NCBI RefSeq assembly: GCF_039645585.1
Contig: NZ_CP147915.1
Coordinates: forward strand, 2,108,001 to 2,172,000
Length of the DNA: 64,000 nucleotides
Direction of reading: 5' to 3'
From: Sulfurimonas sp. HSL-1656
Lineage (GTDB): Bacteria; Campylobacterota; Campylobacteria; Campylobacterales; Sulfurimonadaceae
Shown here one piece after another: positions 14,474 through 24,748 of this stretch; position 1 is the first letter of the stretch; every line of letters starts with the position of its first letter. The notes beneath the pieces are model-generated. The model was given only the letters and a program-made list of their open reading frames with translations. It did not search any database and was not told where the DNA came from. The position numbers and the translations under genes are program-made.

Positions 14474-15266
14474 TCCGCTATGGGTACGGCGCTTCATCAC
14501 CCTGGCCATCCTCGCCGCCGTCGCCAAAGCCCTGATGCTCATCCTGGCGGTATGGCTGCCCCGCGGGGGCGTCGAACCGGCAGTGGCCTCGGGAGACACC
14601 GTCACCTACGCCCGTTACACGCCCTCGCAGCTCTTCGGCATCGAACAGCGCAGGGCCGTTGCGAAGAGCGGCGGCAAGCAGACCGAAGTGTACCGGCTTG
14701 ACGCGCTGACACTGCGCGGGATCTACCTGGAAGAGGCCCACCCCTTTATCCTCGTCGAAGAGGGGAGCAAAACCGAACTCCTCTCCATCGGGGAGCAGTA
14801 CAAACGCTATGCCCTCGTCGACATTCTGCCGACCAAAGCCATTTTCGAAAAGGACGGCCAGCGTTATGCCCTGGCGTTCAAAGAGGAGAGTATGGGAGGG
14901 GTCGAAACGGCAGCGGCTCCGGCCACCTCCGTCGTCACCCAGAACGGCTTCACCTCCATCAAGCGCAAAGAGATACGCTACTACACCGAAAATTTCGACG
15001 CCATCTGGCAAAACGTCAAAATCCAGGAGGTCTACCGGAACAAGAAGCTGACCGGCTTCGAAGTCAAGTGGATCAAAAAGGATTCGATCTTTGCTAAAAT
15101 GGGACTGCAGGAGCATGACATCATCACCGGCATCAACGGCAAACCCCTCACCTCCGTGGCAGAGGTACTCAAACTCTACAAGAATATGGACCAGATCGAC
15201 AACCTGACCCTGGATATCCAGCGAAACCATACAGAAAGGCAGCTTGACTATGCAATTTACGACTAA
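14457..15266 (+). CDS. gspC: Type II secretion protein GspC with PDZ domain
   Basis: GspC bridges the inner-membrane platform and the outer-membrane secretin. The 269-residue protein has one membrane helix (about 13-33) and a homology-region domain (about 70-145, with LDALTLRGIYLEEAHPFILVEE in part). A C-terminal PDZ domain (about 190-262) is recognised by FAKMGLQEHDIITGINGKPL. The order gspC-gspD is conserved in many systems. The start overlaps the GspN-like gene, and the end overlaps the gspD region. Confidence 0.85.
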   Translation: MKQRINPLWVRRFITLAILAAVAKALMLILAVWLPRGGVEPAVASGDTVTYARYTPSQLFGIEQRRAVAKSGGKQTEVYRLDALTLRGIYLEEAHPFILVEEGSKTELLSIGEQYKRYALVDILPTKAIFEKDGQRYALAFKEESMGGVETAAAPATSVVTQNGFTSIKRKEIRYYTENFDAIWQNVKIQEVYRNKKLTGFEVKWIKKDSIFAKMGLQEHDIITGINGKPLTSVAEVLKLYKNMDQIDNLTLDIQRNHTERQLDYAIYD

Positions 15267-17154
15267 ACTCCTCACCCTGGTCCTGGCGGGGGCCATGGCG
15301 TTCGGCTCCGCAGCGGCCGCACGCGAACAGGTCAATCTGAAGCTCCACGACATCAAGATCGAGGAGCTGATCAAGATGGTCGGCAAAGCCAACGGAAAGA
15401 ACATCCTGCTTGACAAACCCATCCCCGGCACCGTCAACTTCGTCTCGTCGACGCCGATCTACAAAGACGAACTCTTCAGTATCCTTCTCTCCGTGCTCGA
15501 CAGCAAAGGGTTCACGCTGGTGCAGGAGGGGAGCTACCTCAAGATCGTCCGCCAGAACGTCGCGGTCAAAGAGAACCTGCCGATCAACCCCGGCACGAAA
15601 TCGATGCTGATGCAGACCCGCTTTATCTCCGCCAAGAACGAGAACATCGACGTCATCGCGGCGAAAGTGCGCCAGTTCCTCTCCCCCGCCGGCAAACTGC
15701 TGACGATCAAAGAGAACAATATGATGATCGTCAGCGACACCCCGGGCAATATCGGCGTCATCGAAACGATCGTCCGCAAGATCGACCGGGACCAGGCGAA
15801 GGACGTCAAAGCCGAATTCATCCCGCTTTCCAATGCCAAGGCAAGCCGCCTGGCCGCCTCCGTCACGAAGATCGCCAAGGCGATCATCAACCAGAAAGTC
15901 GAGAACAACAAGGTCGAGATCCTCAGTGACGACGCCACCAATGCCATCATCATCCTCGCCACCCAGGAGAACATCGACAAACTGACCCCGCTGATCACCC
16001 GGCTCGACGAGAAAGACGACTCGACGAACCAGCGCCTGACCATCATCCCCCTCGAGAACAGCGAGGCCAAAAACGTCGTCGCCTCCCTCCAGGCGGTCCT
16101 GGACAAAAAGAAATACGCGAAAGAGGCGGACAAGCCGACGGTAAGCGTCTATGACGAGCTCAACGCCCTCGTCGTCTCCGGGCTGGAGTCCGACATCAAG
16201 GATATCCAGGCGATGATCAAGATCCTCGACGTTGAGAAACCGCAGGTCTTCGTCAAAGCACGCATCGTCGAGATCAACCAGAACATGGCCGACAGGATCG
16301 GGGTCAAATACGGCCTTGCCGGCGGCGCCGTCACCGATGCCGGCCTCTTCACTTTCGCCGCGGACCTCGGTGGTTCCGCCATCGCCTTCGACGGCGGCGG
16401 GCTGATCAACCTGAGCAGCGCCACCTTCGACTCGGGCATCGCTTTCGGCGCCACGATCGATTTCCTCGCCAGCAACGGCGCGGCGAACACCCTCTCGCAG
16501 CCGACCCTGCTCTGTGTCAACAACCAGGAGTCCTCCATCTACGTCGGTCGCACGGAGCCCATCGTCACCTCAACGGCCCAGGCCGCCGATACGACCTCCG
16601 TCGCGCGCAACACCTACACCCGCGAAGATATCGGTCTGACCCTCAAGATCAAGCCGCGCCTCTCCCAGGGCAACAAGGTCACCCTGATCACCACGGCCAA
16701 GCTCGAGGACATTCTCAACAGCTCCGTCCCCGGCCTGCCGAGTACGACCAAGCGTGAAGTCGTCACCACTGCTATCGTCAGCAACGGCGAAAGCGTCATC
16801 ATCGGGGGGCTCATCTACGACAAGAACCGCGATGAAGCCCAGGGGATTCCCCTCCTGCGCGACATTCCGCTCATCGGCGGCCTCTTCGACTGGAAATACA
16901 GCACCCACGAAGAGATCAACCTCGTGATCGTCCTCACGCCCTTCATCGTACGCAACAACGAAGATATGCCGAAAGTCCGTAAAATGCTGCAGGAGCTCGA
17001 CGCCATCCAGGCCAAGTATGAGGAGCTGATCGAAGAGAAGCTCGAAGAGCGTAAAGAGCAGCTGGACAAGCAGGATCCCGACAGCAATGCGACTGAAGCC
17101 GCCGCCCCGGCCGCCGGGAATGCGCTCTCCGTCATCAGTCCGGCCAAGCGATAA
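15250..17154 (+). CDS. gspD: Type II secretion secretin GspD
   Basis: GspD forms the outer-membrane channel through which folded proteins leave the cell. The 634-residue protein has a Sec signal peptide (cleavage after about GSAAAA), then N0 and three N-domain repeats to about residue 330. The secretin core follows, with VEKPQVFVKARIVEIN, LSQPTLLCVNNQES and VIIGGLIYD..., ending PLIGGLFDW. The C-terminal tail is charged and Ala-rich. I chose the ATG at 15250, with AAAGG ten bases upstream; a TTG at 15244 is the alternative. No pilotin gene was recognised nearby. Confidence 0.94.
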   Translation: MQFTTKLLTLVLAGAMAFGSAAAAREQVNLKLHDIKIEELIKMVGKANGKNILLDKPIPGTVNFVSSTPIYKDELFSILLSVLDSKGFTLVQEGSYLKIVRQNVAVKENLPINPGTKSMLMQTRFISAKNENIDVIAAKVRQFLSPAGKLLTIKENNMMIVSDTPGNIGVIETIVRKIDRDQAKDVKAEFIPLSNAKASRLAASVTKIAKAIINQKVENNKVEILSDDATNAIIILATQENIDKLTPLITRLDEKDDSTNQRLTIIPLENSEAKNVVASLQAVLDKKKYAKEADKPTVSVYDELNALVVSGLESDIKDIQAMIKILDVEKPQVFVKARIVEINQNMADRIGVKYGLAGGAVTDAGLFTFAADLGGSAIAFDGGGLINLSSATFDSGIAFGATIDFLASNGAANTLSQPTLLCVNNQESSIYVGRTEPIVTSTAQAADTTSVARNTYTREDIGLTLKIKPRLSQGNKVTLITTAKLEDILNSSVPGLPSTTKREVVTTAIVSNGESVIIGGLIYDKNRDEAQGIPLLRDIPLIGGLFDWKYSTHEEINLVIVLTPFIVRNNEDMPKVRKMLQELDAIQAKYEELIEEKLEERKEQLDKQDPDSNATEAAAPAAGNALSVISPAKR

Positions 17155-17157
17155 CGC

Positions 17158-18672
17158 ATGCTGAACATTCCCGAACTCGAAGGGGTTGACCTCAAACCCC
17201 ATCCGCTCGAATCGGTAGATCTGAACCTCAGCCTGCGCAGCTACGTGCTTTTCAGCGAGATCGACGGCGACGTCCATATCGTCCTCTCCCGCGCCCACCT
17301 CTCCCAGGCCTTCGACTTCCTCGCCAAGTTCGACCTTGACCTCCCCCTGGTCATCGTCGATGCGGACTCCTTTGACCGGCTCTACAACAAGTTCCTCGAA
17401 ATCCGCACCGACTCCGAACTCAGCGGGATCGAACAGGAACAGGAGGAGATCGAAGAGGAGGAGATGTCGCTCTCGGATTTCCTGCACACCTCTTCGGACC
17501 TGCTTACCAGCGAGGAGTCGGCGCCGGTCATCAAGTTCGTCAACGCCCTCTTCTACCAGGCGGTCAAGCAGCGTGCCTCGGACATCCACGTCGAGGTGCA
17601 TGAGTACAAGGGCGAAGTGCGTTTCCGCGTCGACGGGGCGTTGACCAAACATGCCGACATCGAAAAACGGGTCGCGAACCTCATCATCAGCCGCATCAAG
17701 GTCATCTCCAACCTGGACATCGCCGAAAAACGCGTCCCCCAGGACGGCCGGACCCACGTCAAGATTGCCGGCAAAACCCTCGACGTCCGTGTTTCCGTCC
17801 TGCCGACCTACTACGGCGAACGGGTCGTCATGCGTATGCTGATGCAGTCCGAGGACATCCCCCACCTCGAGGGACTCGGCTTCGACCATGCCCTCACCAA
17901 GCACCTCGACGAAATTCTCAAGCACTCCCACGGCATCATCCTCGTCACCGGACCGACGGGAAGCGGGAAGTCGACGACGCTGCACGCCTTCTTGCAGCAG
18001 GTCGCCACCCCCGATATCAATATCATCACCGTCGAAGACCCCGTCGAGTACAAGGCCGACAACATCAACCAGGTCCAGACCAACGCCAAGGCGGGGCTGA
18101 CGTTCGCTTCAGGGCTGCGCTCCATCCTGCGCCAGGACCCCGACGTCGTCATGGTCGGGGAGATCCGCGACAGCGAAACGGCCGAGATCGCCATCCAGGC
18201 GGCCCTGACCGGCCACCTGGTTTTCTCCACGCTGCACACCAACAACGCCACCGCCTCGGTCACCCGTCTGGTCGACATGGGCATAGAGCAGTTCCTCATC
18301 AGCTCTTCGCTGCTGGGGGTCCTGGCCCAGCGCCTGGTGCGCAAACTCTGCCCCGAATGCAAACAGCAGACCGTCCTTACCGACGAATACGCCGAAGAGC
18401 TTGACCTCCCCAGGGGGGCGCTCATCTTCGAGGAGCAGGGGTGCAAAGCGTGCAACTACACGGGCTACGCCGGCCGCCAGGCGATCGGGGAGTTCTTCGA
18501 GATGACAGACGATCTGGTCTCGATGCTCAAAGACCGGGTCAATGACCATGACCTGCGGGCCAAAGCGATCTCGCTGGGCATGGTCCCCCTCTCCGGACAG
18601 CTCAAGACCCTGCTGCTGGCCGGGACGACCTCCCTGCACGAGATCATCCGCGTCGGGGTCAAAGACGCCTGA
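17158..18672 (+). CDS. gspE: Type II secretion ATPase GspE
   Basis: GspE is the hexameric cytosolic ATPase powering pseudopilus assembly. The 504-residue protein has an N-terminal GspE-N domain (about 1-100), then the ATPase core with Walker A GPTGSGKST and Asp box ITVEDPVEY. The core also holds Walker B DPDVVMVGEIRD and the His box GHLVFSTLHTNNA. A zinc-binding tetracysteine insert (CPEC ... CKAC) separates it from PilT-like ATPases. It starts three bases after gspD. The stop codon shares its last base with the next start. Confidence 0.95.
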   Translation: MLNIPELEGVDLKPHPLESVDLNLSLRSYVLFSEIDGDVHIVLSRAHLSQAFDFLAKFDLDLPLVIVDADSFDRLYNKFLEIRTDSELSGIEQEQEEIEEEEMSLSDFLHTSSDLLTSEESAPVIKFVNALFYQAVKQRASDIHVEVHEYKGEVRFRVDGALTKHADIEKRVANLIISRIKVISNLDIAEKRVPQDGRTHVKIAGKTLDVRVSVLPTYYGERVVMRMLMQSEDIPHLEGLGFDHALTKHLDEILKHSHGIILVTGPTGSGKSTTLHAFLQQVATPDINIITVEDPVEYKADNINQVQTNAKAGLTFASGLRSILRQDPDVVMVGEIRDSETAEIAIQAALTGHLVFSTLHTNNATASVTRLVDMGIEQFLISSSLLGVLAQRLVRKLCPECKQQTVLTDEYAEELDLPRGALIFEEQGCKACNYTGYAGRQAIGEFFEMTDDLVSMLKDRVNDHDLRAKAISLGMVPLSGQLKTLLLAGTTSLHEIIRVGVKDA

Positions 18673-19145
18673 TGCGTCCCGCCTTCACCCTCGTCGAAGT
18701 ACTGGCCGCCGTCGCGATCGCGGTCATCGCGGGCGCGGCGATGCTGAAGATGAACAGTTCGAACCTCTTTTTCCTCGGCCAGCTTGAGCAGACCTCCCTC
18801 ATGACCGAGAACCTTGCCGTCGCGGCCTTTCACGCCGACAAGAGCCTCCACCGCAGCGACAAGCCACTTTACGACCTGCTGCGCGACAGCTACCCCATTG
18901 AAAACGACGATCTGCGCGCCTACCTCAAATCCCAGCGCTACCGCTACACGGAGACCCTGGTCGACACCATTTCGTTCGATACCGGGACGTTGACGGAGGG
19001 GGCGGAGAGCGGGGAGGAGTTCAATGCCAGGGACATCGAGGCAGCCGGCGCCGTTCCGCCGATCCAGTTCGAACTCATCCAGGTGACGCTGAGCGCGGAG
19101 CGGCAGCACGGCTCCATCCTGACCATAAGGCCGATGGCCCAATGA
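18672..19145 (+). CDS. Minor pseudopilin, GspI-like
   Basis: This 157-residue protein starts MRPA followed by FTLVEVLAAVAIAVIA, a prepilin signal with Glu at mature position 5 and Ala before the cleavage site. FTLVEVL is the usual GspI form, and the gene lies before a GspJ-like gene, the normal order. The periplasmic domain is small and unrecognised. GspI nucleates the pseudopilus tip with GspJ and GspK. Confidence 0.78.
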   Translation: MRPAFTLVEVLAAVAIAVIAGAAMLKMNSSNLFFLGQLEQTSLMTENLAVAAFHADKSLHRSDKPLYDLLRDSYPIENDDLRAYLKSQRYRYTETLVDTISFDTGTLTEGAESGEEFNARDIEAAGAVPPIQFELIQVTLSAERQHGSILTIRPMAQ

Positions 19146-19759
19146 AACGCACCGCTTTTACCCTGATGGAACTGCTGATCTCGGTCGTGCTGATCGCTAT
19201 GCTCGCGCTCTTCCTCTACGGGGCACTCGGGGGCACCCGTGCCAGCAACGTCACGATGAAGAGCCATGCGGATGCCCAGAGCAAACGGCTCAAGCAGTAT
19301 GCCCTGTTCTACCGCGACTGTGTCGAATCCTATGCCTTCGGCGTCCTTGCCACCAACGACAAGCACTACCAGGTACTGCAGCTGCAGACAAAGAACTCCC
19401 TCTACGGCATCGCCGCACCCTATGTCACCTACTTCGTCCATGCGGAGACCCTTCAGCTCGTGCGCCTGGAGGCGGCTTTCCCCATTACCCTGCCGGTGCC
19501 CTACGATGACCGCGAACGCATCCACGTCAGCATCATCGACAGTGACGTGACAGATTTCAATATCTATACCGGAAAAGTGCAAGAGACGGCGGAGAGCAAT
19601 GCGACGGCTCTCCCGCCCGGCAGTGCCGTCCCCTCTGATACAGGGGCGGGGGATACAACACAGAGCCTGAAGTCAGGCCCGCGTACGATCAAAACGCATC
19701 TGCTCTACCTGAAAACGAAAGCGGCGCAGCAGCCGCTGCTGATGGAACTGGCTTTTTAG
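19142..19759 (+). CDS. Minor pseudopilin, GspJ-like
   Basis: This 205-residue protein starts MKRTA followed by FTLMELLISVVLIAML, a prepilin signal with Glu at mature position 5. The domain that follows is soluble and beta-rich, with a Thr/Pro/Ser-rich stretch at about 150-175 before the C-terminus. It overlaps the GspI-like gene by four bases and is last in the rightward gsp operon, the expected place for GspJ. The next gene, dxs, runs toward it with an 11-base gap. Confidence 0.75.
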   Translation: MKRTAFTLMELLISVVLIAMLALFLYGALGGTRASNVTMKSHADAQSKRLKQYALFYRDCVESYAFGVLATNDKHYQVLQLQTKNSLYGIAAPYVTYFVHAETLQLVRLEAAFPITLPVPYDDRERIHVSIIDSDVTDFNIYTGKVQETAESNATALPPGSAVPSDTGAGDTTQSLKSGPRTIKTHLLYLKTKAAQQPLLMELAF

Positions 19760-19770
19760 GGAAGGAAGCG

Positions 19771-21597
19771 CTAGAGGCTTTCGCGGATACGCTCGGCGAG
19801 CTGTTCGGGGCGCAGCCCCAGCGACGCTTCGACTTTCAGTGTCGCGCCGTGGGTAATAAAGGCGTCTTCGTATTCGAAGCTCTGAAGGCGGACATCCCCG
19901 ATCCCCTCGATTGAGAGCCACTCCAGCAGGGCGCTGCCCACCCCGCCGGCCGCGGCGGAGTCGCTGAAGACGAACCAGCGCTTGTGGCGGTTTGAGAGCA
20001 TACGCAGCAGTTCCGTGTCGAGCGGTTTGACGAAACGCAGGTCCAGCAGGGCTGCCGGCATCCCCAGCTGAGAGAGGGTCTGCGCCGCGCGGCCGACACC
20101 GTTGCCATACCCGATCAGCAGGATATCGCTCTGTGCTTCTATCAGCAGCTCCGCCTTGCCGTATTCAAAAGAGGCGGACTCGGGCAGTTCCGCTTCCAAA
20201 AATGCCCCCCGGGGGTAACGGAGCCCCAGTGGACGGTCAAAGGCCGCCGCAAAGGCCACGGCCTGGTGCATCGACTTTTCGTCCCGGGGCGCGCAGAGCG
20301 TCATATTCGGGATCGCGCGCAGGAAGCTGATGTCGAAGACTCCCTGGTGCGTCTCGCCATCCTCGCCGACGATCCCCGCCCGGTCCATCGCAAAAACGAC
20401 CGGAAGGTCCATCAGACAGACATCGTGGATCACCTGGTCGTACCCGCGCTGCAAAAAGGTGGAGTAGATCGTACAGAAAGGTTTGAACCCCTCTTTAGCC
20501 AGTGCACCCATCGACGTCACGGCGTGCTGCTCGGCGATCGCCACGTCCCAGAAACGTTCGGGGTACTTCTCGAGCAGGGGCGTCAGGCCGGTGCCGCTCG
20601 GCATCGCCGCCGTGACGCCGACGACCTTCTCATCACGGTCGGCCTGGTGCATCAGCGCCTCGGTGTAGATCTGCGTCGCACTCTTGCTCCCTCCACTCTT
20701 CTTCCGCGATACGCCGCTGTCGATATCAAAGGGACCGACACCGTGCCACTGCTCGTGCTGACCCTCGGCGATCTTGTAGCCCTTGCCTTTGACGGTCTGG
20801 GCATGAATGATCACCGGCTTTCCCATCGCGCGGGCGGTCTCGAAGGTCTCGACGAGACGTTTGATGTCGTGCCCGTCAACGGGACCGATATACTCGATTC
20901 CCATCTCTTCGAACATGATGCCCGGCGTGATCAGCTTGAAGGACTCCTCGAAGCGTTTGGCCAGGTAATGCGCCCCCTCACCGAAATGGTCCACAAACAT
21001 TTCCGTGCCGCGTTTGATTTTCTGATAGAAGGGGCTCGCCATCGCGGAGCTGAGCATCCGGCTGACGGCCCCGATCGGCTTGGCAATACTCATCTCATTG
21101 TCGTTGAGAATGATCACCATCGGGTATTCGCGCTCGCCGAGCTCGTTAAGGGCCTCGTAGGCCATCCCCGCACTCAGCGCCCCGTCGCCGATCATGACGA
21201 CGGGAATCCGCTCGTTCTGCTCCCCTTTGAGGGCAATCGCTTTCGCGGCACCGACCCCGAGGGAGATGGAGGTGGAGGAGTGGCCCGCAACAAAGTAGTC
21301 GTGCTCACTCTCTTTGGGCTTCGTGTAGCCGCTGAGACCGTCGAACTGGCGCAGGGTGGCAAAAGCTTCCCAACGCCCCGTCAGCAGCTTGTGGGCATAG
21401 GCCTGGTGAGAGACATCGAAGATGAAAGGATCCTTGGCCGAATCAAACACCGCATGCATCGCCACGATCAGCTCGGTCGCCCCCAGCGTGGAGCTCAGGT
21501 GCCCGCCGTTGGTACTGACCACGTCCAGGATCCGCTCCCGGATCGCGCGGCACTGTGCCTCCAGCGCTTCATAATCGTGTAATGGTTTTTGGTTCAT
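19771..21597 (-). CDS. dxs: 1-deoxy-D-xylulose-5-phosphate synthase
   Basis: Dxs condenses pyruvate and glyceraldehyde 3-phosphate, the first step of the MEP isoprenoid pathway, using thiamine diphosphate. The 608-residue length fits. The ThDP motif GDGALSAGMAYEALN, GHSSTSISLG, the EQHAVTSMGALA glutamate and the C-terminal transketolase domain are all present. I start at the ATG at 21597, preceded by GAGG. In Campylobacter and Helicobacter dxs lies just downstream of fliH; here it follows the FliF/FliG-like fusion gene. Confidence 0.96.
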   Translation of the reverse strand: MNQKPLHDYEALEAQCRAIRERILDVVSTNGGHLSSTLGATELIVAMHAVFDSAKDPFIFDVSHQAYAHKLLTGRWEAFATLRQFDGLSGYTKPKESEHDYFVAGHSSTSISLGVGAAKAIALKGEQNERIPVVMIGDGALSAGMAYEALNELGEREYPMVIILNDNEMSIAKPIGAVSRMLSSAMASPFYQKIKRGTEMFVDHFGEGAHYLAKRFEESFKLITPGIMFEEMGIEYIGPVDGHDIKRLVETFETARAMGKPVIIHAQTVKGKGYKIAEGQHEQWHGVGPFDIDSGVSRKKSGGSKSATQIYTEALMHQADRDEKVVGVTAAMPSGTGLTPLLEKYPERFWDVAIAEQHAVTSMGALAKEGFKPFCTIYSTFLQRGYDQVIHDVCLMDLPVVFAMDRAGIVGEDGETHQGVFDISFLRAIPNMTLCAPRDEKSMHQAVAFAAAFDRPLGLRYPRGAFLEAELPESASFEYGKAELLIEAQSDILLIGYGNGVGRAAQTLSQLGMPAALLDLRFVKPLDTELLRMLSNRHKRWFVFSDSAAAGGVGSALLEWLSIEGIGDVRLQSFEYEDAFITHGATLKVEASLGLRPEQLAERIRESL

Positions 21598-21648
21598 CCT
21601 GTCCTCGTACAATGGCCTCTCCCTGAAAAAGGGGAAAAAAGGTGAAGC

Positions 21649-21671: not shown

Positions 21672-22538
21672 TCAACCTTCTCCGCCCCGGGGCGCCTGCA
21701 GTGCTTCAGCTTCAAGTAATCTGATAATCCCCTCTTTGGGGTGTCCCCGGCGCAGGGCCGCCAGCAGCGCCTCGCGCGTCTGCGGCGTGAGCCGTCGGTA
21801 GATGGCGACCATCTTCTCCGTCGTCTCCGCCGGCCGTACCCGTTTCTGCAGCGCTTTCATTTTTTGGGCAAAGAGTTCCGACAGCCGACGGCGCAGCCCT
21901 TCGTCACACTCCCCGCTGCAGGCCATCCGTTCCCAGACCCGGTCGCGCTGGTGCACCTCCATCGCCTCCATCGCCGCGGCGGCTTCCGCCGTCGCCAGCG
22001 TCAGGAGGTAGACCGCGACAGTCTGGGGATGCTCCCCCTCATAGAGCCGCTGCGTCCCGGCCGGAATAGGCGCCTCGGGAACGGTCGCGGGCGGTTGCGG
22101 CAGCGGCCGGGTTTCAACGTGAGGTTCGGTCACAGCCGATGCCGGGTTCGTCGGCTGCAGCAGTCGCACAAAGCGCCGTGCAACCGACGCGACGCCCCCC
22201 GCCGTCGCCAGCAGCAGCAGGATCAGAAGGAGCTGGGATCTGCGGTCGGGCTGCGGGCGGACCTCCCCCAGCGCGAGCCCCTGGCGCTGCAGGCGTGCGG
22301 CATCGCGCTCATCCACAAGGATACGTCCGTCTTTCCTGACACGGTAATCCGCATCGAGCAGTTCCAGCCGCTCCATCAGCCGCCCCGTCATAACAGGGTC
22401 GGCAATGGAACCGATAGCCATTTCCATGTGCGTAAGCGAACGGTAGAGCATGCCGCCAAGCAGCAGGAAACAGAGCAGGAGCAGGGAGAGCAGAACGGCG
22501 GTCTTCGGCAGGGAGGAGAAAGCGTCTGCGATCTTCAC
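21672..22538 (-). CDS. FliF/FliG-like single-chain membrane protein (possible flagellar MS-ring/C-ring remnant)
   Basis: This is a 288-residue protein. It has a membrane helix at about 14-33 and a small periplasmic domain (about 38-95) resembling the first ring-building motif of FliF (LMERLELLDADYRV then DGRILVDERDAARLQRQGL). A second membrane helix follows (about 100-120), then a Pro-rich linker (about 135-160). The cytoplasmic region contains EGEHPQTVAVYLLTL, the EHPQT signature of the FliG middle domain. FliF ring-building motifs 2 and 3 are absent, and I see no FliG torque domain. Gene order around it (pheA-hisC-X-dxs) equals that of Campylobacter jejuni, where X is fliF-fliG-fliH. It starts 12 bases after hisC ends, so it is co-transcribed. 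It may be a remnant of flagellar loss or a repurposed ring protein. The domain calls are by eye. Confidence 0.72.
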   Translation of the reverse strand: MKIADAFSSLPKTAVLLSLLLLCFLLLGGMLYRSLTHMEMAIGSIADPVMTGRLMERLELLDADYRVRKDGRILVDERDAARLQRQGLALGEVRPQPDRRSQLLLILLLLATAGGVASVARRFVRLLQPTNPASAVTEPHVETRPLPQPPATVPEAPIPAGTQRLYEGEHPQTVAVYLLTLATAEAAAAMEAMEVHQRDRVWERMACSGECDEGLRRRLSELFAQKMKALQKRVRPAETTEKMVAIYRRLTPQTREALLAALRRGHPKEGIIRLLEAEALQAPRGGEG

Positions 22539-22550
22539 CCCGCCCTCCGA

Positions 22551-23645
22551 TCAGACCAGCTCCGCGGCCAGGGCGAAAAAGCGGTCGTTCTCTTCGGGCT
22601 TTCCGACGGTGACCCGGATCGCATTGAGCCCATAACCGGCGAGGTTGCGCACGATCATCCCTTGCCGCAGCAGGGCATCGGCGATCGCGGTGGAATTCCT
22701 GCCCTCGCCCAGGCAGAGGGTGACAAAGTTCGTATAGCTCTCGATCGCACGGATACCGTGCGCTTCGGCAAAGGCCTCGTAACGCGCCATCTCCTCGAAG
22801 TTCTTCGCGATGCTCATCTGCACGAACGCCTCGTCCTCCAGGGCCACGGAAGCCGCTTCCAGCGAGAGGGTCGTGATGTTGAAAGGGGGACGGAGCTTGT
22901 AGAGCGCGGTGATAATATCGCGCTGCGCGATACCGTACCCGACACGCATGCCCCCCAGCCCGTACGCTTTCGAGAAGGTCCCGAGGTACAGCACGTTCTC
23001 ATAGGTCTCAATGAGTTCTTTGGGCTCCAGGGCCTTGGCGGCATCCTTGTAGCGGGCGTACTCCATGTAGGCGCCGTCGACGATGACCAGGGTCTCCTTG
23101 TCGATTTTAGAGAGGAAAGCTTTCACTTCGGCCGCATCCGCGCTGTCGCCGGTCGGGTTGTTCGGCGTACAGAGGAAGATGATGGAGGGTTTGTGCTCCA
23201 GGTAGAGCGCGTAGAACTCATCGAGATCATGTTCGCGTGATGCCGTGCGGATCACCTCCGCACCGACATGGTGCGCGTATATCTCGTACATCGCGAAAGT
23301 GACGCTGTTCACCAGCACCTTGCTGCCCGCACCCGCCTTGGCGTGAACGGCGAACTCGATCACCTGGTCCGAACCGGCCCCGATCACGACTTCATGCGGA
23401 TCGACGCCGAAACGTTTTGAGAGCCCCGCTTTGAGCTTGTGCATGGAGTCGTCGGGGTAGAGGGCCATCTTGGAGACGATCGCGCCCACGGCCTCCTGCA
23501 CTTTCGGGGAGCAGCCGAACGGGTTCTCGTTACTGGCGAGCTTGACAATATCCTTCGGCGCGATCCCGAATTCGCGAACGACAAGCTCGATCGGCTTGCC
23601 CGCCTCATAGACGCTGATGGCATCAAGTACTGGATTGAATCTCAT
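22551..23645 (-). CDS. hisC: Histidinol-phosphate aminotransferase
   Basis: HisC transfers an amino group to imidazole-acetol phosphate in histidine synthesis and, in bacteria lacking dedicated enzymes, may also serve Tyr/Phe synthesis. The 364-residue fold-type I PLP enzyme shows SNENPFG near the N-terminus, [17 protein letters not shown], and the PLP Lys in [16 protein letters not shown]. The ATG at 23645 overlaps the pheA stop codon by four bases (ATGA), which fixes the start; the frame is open to 23675. Coupling to pheA suggests a role in phenylalanine synthesis too. Confidence 0.93.
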
Positions 23646-24748
23646 TGTTCCCCTTCGACGTAGCTTCCCAGCCACGTCACTTCTTCGGTATATTTTTTCA
23701 GAACGCGTTGCACGTTTTTATCGTCGATATGGCCGTAAAAATCGATAAAGAACCAGTACCCGAAACCGGAACCGCTTTTGGCCGGGCGGCTCTCGATCTT
23801 GCTGAGGTTGATCTTGGCCTTGTCGAAATCGTGCAGGAAATGGACCAGGACACCGGCACGCGTCGTCTTCTTGAGTTTGGCCAGGATCGAGGTCTTGTCA
23901 TGGCCGCTCGGGACGTTTTTGAAATCGCTCAGGATAAAGAAGCGCGTCGTGTTGTCGGTGACGTCCTCGATGTTCTCGAACAGCATCGGGACCCCGTAGA
24001 GCTTGGCGGCGATATGGCTGCAGATCGCCGCGGACTCCGGGTCCTTTGCCGCGAGGATGGCGGCCTTCGCCGTCGACTCGACGGGAATCTGCTCCACATT
24101 GTGAAGCCCATGCTCGTCCAGGAAGGCGCGGCACTGGCCGAAGCCCTTGTCCTTGGAGTAGATGCGCTTGATTCCGTCGAGGTGCGGCGCCTTCGTTGCA
24201 AAGGTCATGTGGATCGGCATGTAGAGTTCCGCCACGATCTTCACGGGGCTCGCCGCCAGCAGGTCGAGCGTCTCGCCGACGACGCCGTCGCGCCGGCTTT
24301 CGATCGGGACGACCCCGAACTTCGCGCGCCCGCTCTCGAGGGCCTTGAAAACGCCGTTGATCGTGCCCATCGGGAGGTATTCGCTCATCGCGCCGAAACG
24401 GCTCTCCGCCGCCTGGTGGGTAAAGGTGCCTTCCGGACCGAGGTAGGCGATGCGTTCAGGGAGTTCGAGGTTGCGCGCGACGGCGAAGATCTCGAGGAAG
24501 ATCGCTTCGATCGCCCCGGCATTGAGCAGTCCCTTCTGCTCGATGTTGAGCGTCTCAAGCCGCTTCAGGATCGCCCGTTCCCGTTCGGGGCGGTAGATCG
24601 GCGCGCCGCTTTCGTTCTTGATCTCCCCGACGCGCTCCACCACGGCCATGCGCTCATTGATCAGGGCCAGCAGCTCCGTATCAATCGCATCAATGGCATC
24701 GCGGCACGCCTCGAGGGTGTCCAACGCTTGTATCGCTTCGCTTTTCAC
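23642..24748 (-). CDS. pheA: Bifunctional chorismate mutase / prephenate dehydratase
   Basis: This enzyme converts chorismate to prephenate and then phenylpyruvate for phenylalanine synthesis. In the 368-residue protein the chorismate mutase domain (about 8-95) shows [20 protein letters not shown]. The prephenate dehydratase domain (about 100-275) shows [14 protein letters not shown]. The C-terminal ACT domain (about 280-365) shows ISKIESRP-like [13 protein letters not shown], the phenylalanine feedback site. It overlaps hisC and the HAD gene by four bases each, so the three are translationally coupled. Confidence 0.96.

Follow-up and report, generated by a model that had tools for sequence, protein, structure and literature searches.

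Engineered FliF-FliG fusions are known from Salmonella, where, as in the protein described here, the two partners form one chain, but that chain is near full-length and acts in a working motor; ordinarily the FliG N-domain docks on FliF and the FliG torque domain meets the stator. Basal parts can also outlast motility, as they have in our host organism, in the filament-less basal bodies of Buchnera, but there the export apparatus is kept, whereas the host export gate is gone. A further system of relevance is the control of cell division by FlhG and the MS/C ring in C. jejuni, a bacterium without Min, in which flhG, fliF, fliG, fliM, fliY, and fliN mutants form minicells; loss of fliH or fliI has no such effect, and single export-apparatus mutants form none or far fewer (PMC3228812, PMC6946799). 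The minicells of the fliG mutant were weak or absent in the 2011 study (PMC3228812) and amounted to about 12% in that of 2020 (PMC6946799). The polar localization of FlhG in C. jejuni is affected by the C ring, and in the view of the authors of the 2020 study FliF and FliG do not position FlhG directly (PMC6946799).

The window (the whole stretch of 64,000 nucleotides that was analyzed) carries, on its minus strand, an open reading frame that runs from a GTG start at 22538 to 21672 and encodes 288 amino acids. As the original prediction stated, it stands between hisC and dxs where fliF, fliG, and fliH lie in relatives, and synteny across the order confirms this: most families surveyed have the order hisC-fliF-fliG-fliH-dxs with separate genes, the products being ~575 aa (FliF), ~342 aa (FliG), and ~265 aa (FliH), whereas in the host genus a single fusion gene takes the place of all three. 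The features of the locus, in the direction of transcription and with the basis of each in parentheses, are as follows:

22551..23675, minus strand: hisC, the conserved upstream neighbor (synteny)
21672..22538, minus strand: FliF(RBM1)-FliG(M/ARM_C) fusion protein, 288 aa (ORF, Pfam, and profile comparison)
22431..22505, minus strand: first transmembrane helix, residues 12-36 (sequence; AlphaFold helix)
22248..22427, minus strand: periplasmic RBM1-like domain, residues 38-97 (FliF profile, P = 1.7e-5; orthologues over the Pfam YscJ_FliF cut-off; AlphaFold model)
22158..22244, minus strand: second transmembrane helix, residues 99-127 (sequence; AlphaFold model)
22053..22157, minus strand: Pro-rich disordered linker, residues 128-162 (pLDDT <50 over residues 131-158; dN/dS)
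21846..22040, minus strand: FliG middle domain, residues 167-231 (Pfam FliG_M, E 9.3e-9; Foldseek match to FliG)
22023..22034, minus strand: EHPQ motif, residues 169-172 (same in all fused orthologues and the native FliG compared)
21696..21833, minus strand: three-helix ARM_C-like tail, residues 236-281, with the FliG torque helices absent (TIGR00207, profile, and AlphaFold model)
19771..21612, minus strand: dxs, the conserved downstream neighbor (synteny)

The architecture originally proposed from the letters alone, in which a FliF-like RBM1 between two transmembrane helices is followed by a linker and a FliG part, is borne out by Pfam FliG_M, by the FliF and FliG profiles, each of which matches its half, and by the AlphaFold model. 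On the FliG side, the FliG_M match (residues 167-231) lies over the curated cut-off, the helical cytoplasmic domain carries EHPQT, and comparison of the C-terminal part of the orthologues with FliG gave P = 1.9e-10. The FliG family model TIGR00207 aligns residues 164-266 with FliG 125-227 only, for a full-length score of 30 bits against a cut-off of 226.7, and it is therefore apparent that the fusion is without FliG_N and the torque helices; Pfam FliG_C gave no match in it. The FliF half of the window copy is too diverged to be recognized by Pfam, and its match to a FliF structure in the PDB (residues 17-93) is weak at E 0.92. When the N-termini of seven orthologues were compared as a profile with 21 FliF proteins of the same order, however, a score of 42.7 (P = 1.7e-5) was obtained, against a best of 20.5 in 20 column-shuffled controls, and the alignment pairs DYRV..DG.I.V of the fusion with the RBM1 motif of FliF. 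In an orthologue from the same genus (G224), both YscJ_FliF (25.4 bits, cut-off 24.4) and FliG_M (46.2 bits) exceed their Pfam cut-offs within one chain.

The AlphaFold model (mean pLDDT 75.6) places a beta-alpha-beta-beta-alpha unit between the transmembrane helices and a FliG-like helical fold at the C-terminus, the latter being partly conditioned on FliG homology as 17 of the 24 input sequences were native FliG segments; with an overall pTM of 0.35-0.38, these statements hold at the level of single domains. Foldseek ranks FliG structures highest for it (E 1.5e-4; the FliG_M of 4fq0 superposes at rmsd 2.0 over 69 columns), and FliG still ranked first, at E 4.5e-3, when the model was built without the FliG rows. 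A search against a defense-system library gave nothing credible. The protein thus shares with FliF the two transmembrane helices that flank an RBM1-like domain of ~60 periplasmic residues, but the second of these follows RBM1 directly, so that RBM2 and RBM3 with its collar are absent, and a direct join to the FliG domain replaces the FliG-binding tail. With FliG it shares the EHPQ motif, the ARM_M fold, and the start of ARM_C, but it lacks the N-domain and the torque-generating C-terminal helices, is anchored in the membrane, and occurs in a genome without FliM or FliN.

The fusion gene was found in seven of the eight genomes of the host genus, where the copies diverge to ~29-35% identity; the exception, G223 (99% complete), has no fusion and no FliG_M match. 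A scan of named genomes for other fused proteins returned only three members of the genus and two acidobacterial FliG-like matches. A longer form occurs in G002, from the sister genus, where a 554-codon open frame (548 aa from the ATG) at hisC-dxs encodes TM-RBM1-TM joined to a complete FliG and exceeds the Pfam cut-offs for YscJ_FliF, FliG_N, FliG_M, and FliG_C. Judged against what we take to be the corresponding positions in E. coli FliG, its stator-facing charged residues look largely lost. In a tree of hisC and dxs, G002 groups with the host genus (support 0.994), nested inside flagellate lineages. The native fliF and fliG genes are almost certainly the source of the fusion. The converse, that the small fusion is ancestral and separate fliF and fliG are derived, is scarcely conceivable: we found nothing in its favor, the fusion clade is nested among flagellate lineages, and distant families carry separate fliF-fliG-fliH at hisC-dxs.

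Because G002 carries the 554-codon form as a surviving intermediate, the locus shows stepwise condensation. In the most economical order of events, loss of the flagellum was followed by fusion, with deletion of RBM2/RBM3 and fliH, after which FliG shed its N- and torque domains. The first step would have been taken in the common ancestor of the host and sister genera. FliF would then have been cut to TM1-RBM1-TM2 and joined to FliG as fliH was deleted, which is supported by synteny and by the intermediate, and the further loss of the N-domain and torque domain occurred in the host genus. As a side observation, family f23 has an ORF of 579-582 aa after hisC (L081, 1113-2858; L082, 1102-2838) that was not hit when the fusion was used as BLAST query.

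Could the fusion replace part of a flagellar or C-ring device that still works in the host? The host genome is a single contig of 2,556,179 bases, 99.97% complete, and a full fliF/fliG/flhA set elsewhere, for which the original prediction suggested looking, was not found in it. FliF (PF01514) had no match even at E 10, FlhA had none, there was no further FliG_M match above threshold, FliM/FliN reached a best E of 0.24, which is not significant, and the proteins matched by the FlhF profile resemble FtsY, Ffh, and a small P-loop protein rather than FlhF. Thiomicrolovo, which appears to be the genus of the host, is described as non-motile, without flagellar genes, and with coccoid to oval cells (PMC12403661). 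The one point in favor is that a relative, G222, from the same and otherwise flagellum-less genus, has flagellar genes, in a compact cluster on contig C18 (L100-L101) and not at hisC-dxs, where it keeps the fusion gene (locus L034). These genes look foreign and probably re-acquired by horizontal transfer, since the FliG that they bring is only ~36% identical to native FliG while their FlhF and FlhA are 60-66% identical to those of family f18; G222 is moreover a metagenome bin, in which a binning error is possible. In no relative was a normal fliF-fliG pair found beside the fusion at hisC-dxs, and both halves of the protein have profile matches; neither condition for refutation given in the original prediction therefore applies. 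With FlhA, FliF, FliM, and FliN all missing from a complete genome and the torque domain missing from the protein, a working device is very improbable.

A second question is whether the gene is a functionless remnant awaiting deletion. In close pairs, dN/dS is 0.09-0.17 over residues 1-97 (TM1 and RBM1) and 0.06-0.12 over residues 163-288 (the FliG part), compared with 0.56-0.90 over residues 98-162 (TM2 and linker); more distant pairs give a higher 0.27-0.40 for the FliG part, and the reference values are 0.016-0.078 for hisC and 0.03-0.066 for FlhG. Purifying selection acts on both folded domains and hardly constrains the linker. Decay could be read from the loss of the fliFGH locus in other aflagellate lineages (f6), from the lack of any FliG_M match in G223, and from the low identity within the genus. 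Yet the frame is open in all seven copies despite this deep divergence, the folded domains are constrained where the linker is not, the EHPQ motif is invariant, and G222 has retained the fusion after gaining a foreign flagellar set, so decay is improbable and the fusion very likely retains a non-flagellar role. The original description of the locus as "condensed or decayed" therefore stands in its first part, through synteny, the intermediate, and the absence of FliF, FlhA, FliM/N, and FlhF from the host, and fails in its second, through purifying selection.

The host does retain FlhG (C1:1015193-1016020), which is 57% identical to FlhG of G219, a complete aflagellate genome considered below, and lies in the syntenic order amidohydrolase-aroQ-folK-[flhF deleted]-flhG; the three other complete genomes of the genus have it too, likewise in synteny. 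Its Walker A motif, FDADIGLANLD, and C-terminal amphipathic segment are intact, and it lacks the N-terminal QA-type helix of relatives that have FlhF. As the DQAxxLR helix of FlhG activates FlhF (PMC12826062), it makes sense that the helix was lost along with FlhF, and the retention of the rest of FlhG without FlhF implies that it has another job. In the 76% of the host genome that was read, the only MinD-like matches were FlhG and one weak match, probably of ParA type. With FlhG found in the host, the absence of FlhF no longer stands against a role in division.

Since the genes kept in the host are a subset of the non-motility set of C. jejuni, we propose that the fusion is a membrane scaffold that positions FlhG. 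The protein sits in the inner membrane, with a small RBM1 domain on the periplasmic side and a domain like FliG ARM_M/ARM_C in the cytoplasm, through which it may self-associate as FliG does to form a small membrane cluster or ring. Such a cluster could position FlhG, the MinD-like ATPase kept without FlhF, and the two might mark the poles or restrict the site of the division ring, as in C. jejuni. To the whole account, of native descent, condensation, and an FlhG-positioning scaffold for polarity or division-site control, we assign a probability of roughly 45%. The division-site role itself is plausible but tentative, and we are similarly guarded about a two-protein, flagellum-free positioning system in which the minimal fusion would serve FlhG as a membrane landmark. 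The parallel with C. jejuni lies in the shared phylum, the retention of FlhG with a FliF/FliG-derived protein, and the dispensability of the secretion apparatus (PMC3228812, PMC6946799). It is limited by the host having no flagellum, FlhF, FliM, or FliN and by the loss of the FlhF-activating helix of FlhG. Several points speak against a link to FlhG. The genus lacks FliM and FliN, which among C-ring proteins have the closest ties to it, G223 has no fusion, and the C. jejuni authors doubt a direct positioning of FlhG by FliF and FliG. As MinD-like proteins were looked for in 76% of the host genome, a normal Min system may also be present in the rest. Polar marking may also matter less in the coccoid to oval cells of Thiomicrolovo.

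Alternatively, the fusion could be a flagellum-independent membrane scaffold unrelated to FlhG, serving an envelope or secretion machine (type II, for example) or a signaling input like the MS-ring sensing of FlgS. Other proteins also use a FliG fold, the cytosolic domain of MgtE among them, and just beyond dxs lie genes that encode a secretin, a GspE-type ATPase, and proteins like pseudopilins, but these run convergently and the window copy matched no known secretion-system family. The hisC-dxs position is also ancestral, so closeness to these genes is no evidence; we consider this alternative possible but doubtful. For the same reason we set aside a specific link to the neighboring type II genes, which reflects position only. 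The genes themselves occupy 15244-19759 of the window on the plus strand, convergent towards dxs. The surface-sensing and secretion-scaffold roles first suggested for the protein found no specific support, while the retention of FlhG points to control of polarity or of the division site.

The fusion is not described in the literature found in a limited search of open-licence papers; its fused, reduced architecture is probably new, and it probably belongs to an FlhG module free of the flagellum. If our preferred reading, of an FlhG-positioning scaffold, is true, parts of the flagellar motor can survive loss of the flagellum as a cell-organizing device, and these strains are an experiment of nature in which what FlhG and the MS/C ring do outside motility has been set apart: a division or polarity phenotype in them would not be attributable to motility or secretion. 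The locus also illustrates clearly how proteins can be condensed step by step, with the intermediate still extant.

Other aflagellate Campylobacterota allow some comparison. The complete genome G219, which has no FlhA, keeps FlhG, FliG, FliM with SQEEIDALL, FliY, FliN, and a shortened FliH, along with a FliF in which a clean deletion has removed the RBM3 collar stretch; FlhF and FliA no longer occupy their usual positions. This C-ring gene set without an export gate is found at L068 (1099-3838), L154 (9809-12717), and L155 (9965-10288). G238, also without FlhA, keeps FlhF, FlhG, a 396-aa FliG, a degenerate FliM, and FliN-like proteins (L156, 2454-5503; L083, 1110-2297; L148), and has no fliF at hisC-dxs. 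In four aflagellate genomes of family f6 the fliFGH locus has been lost, and FlhF is the immediate neighbor of mnmA, FlhG being absent from that spot. In the ~4 independent lineages compared it is suggestive that FlhG and FliG derivatives tend to be retained or lost jointly. The system proposed for the host might then be the last stage of a recurrent trend: in flagellum-less Campylobacterota, the FlhG-MS/C-ring part of the flagellum would be retained for cell polarity or division-site selection. We hold this extension as tentatively as the two-protein system of which it is part. In the f6 genomes (L110, L113, L114, L115), the FlhF-like GTPase sits between folK and mnmA. In G098, which has FlhA, FlhF is in separate pieces with an in-frame stop (L158, ~15322-16634), reflecting either a sequencing error or a real disruption.
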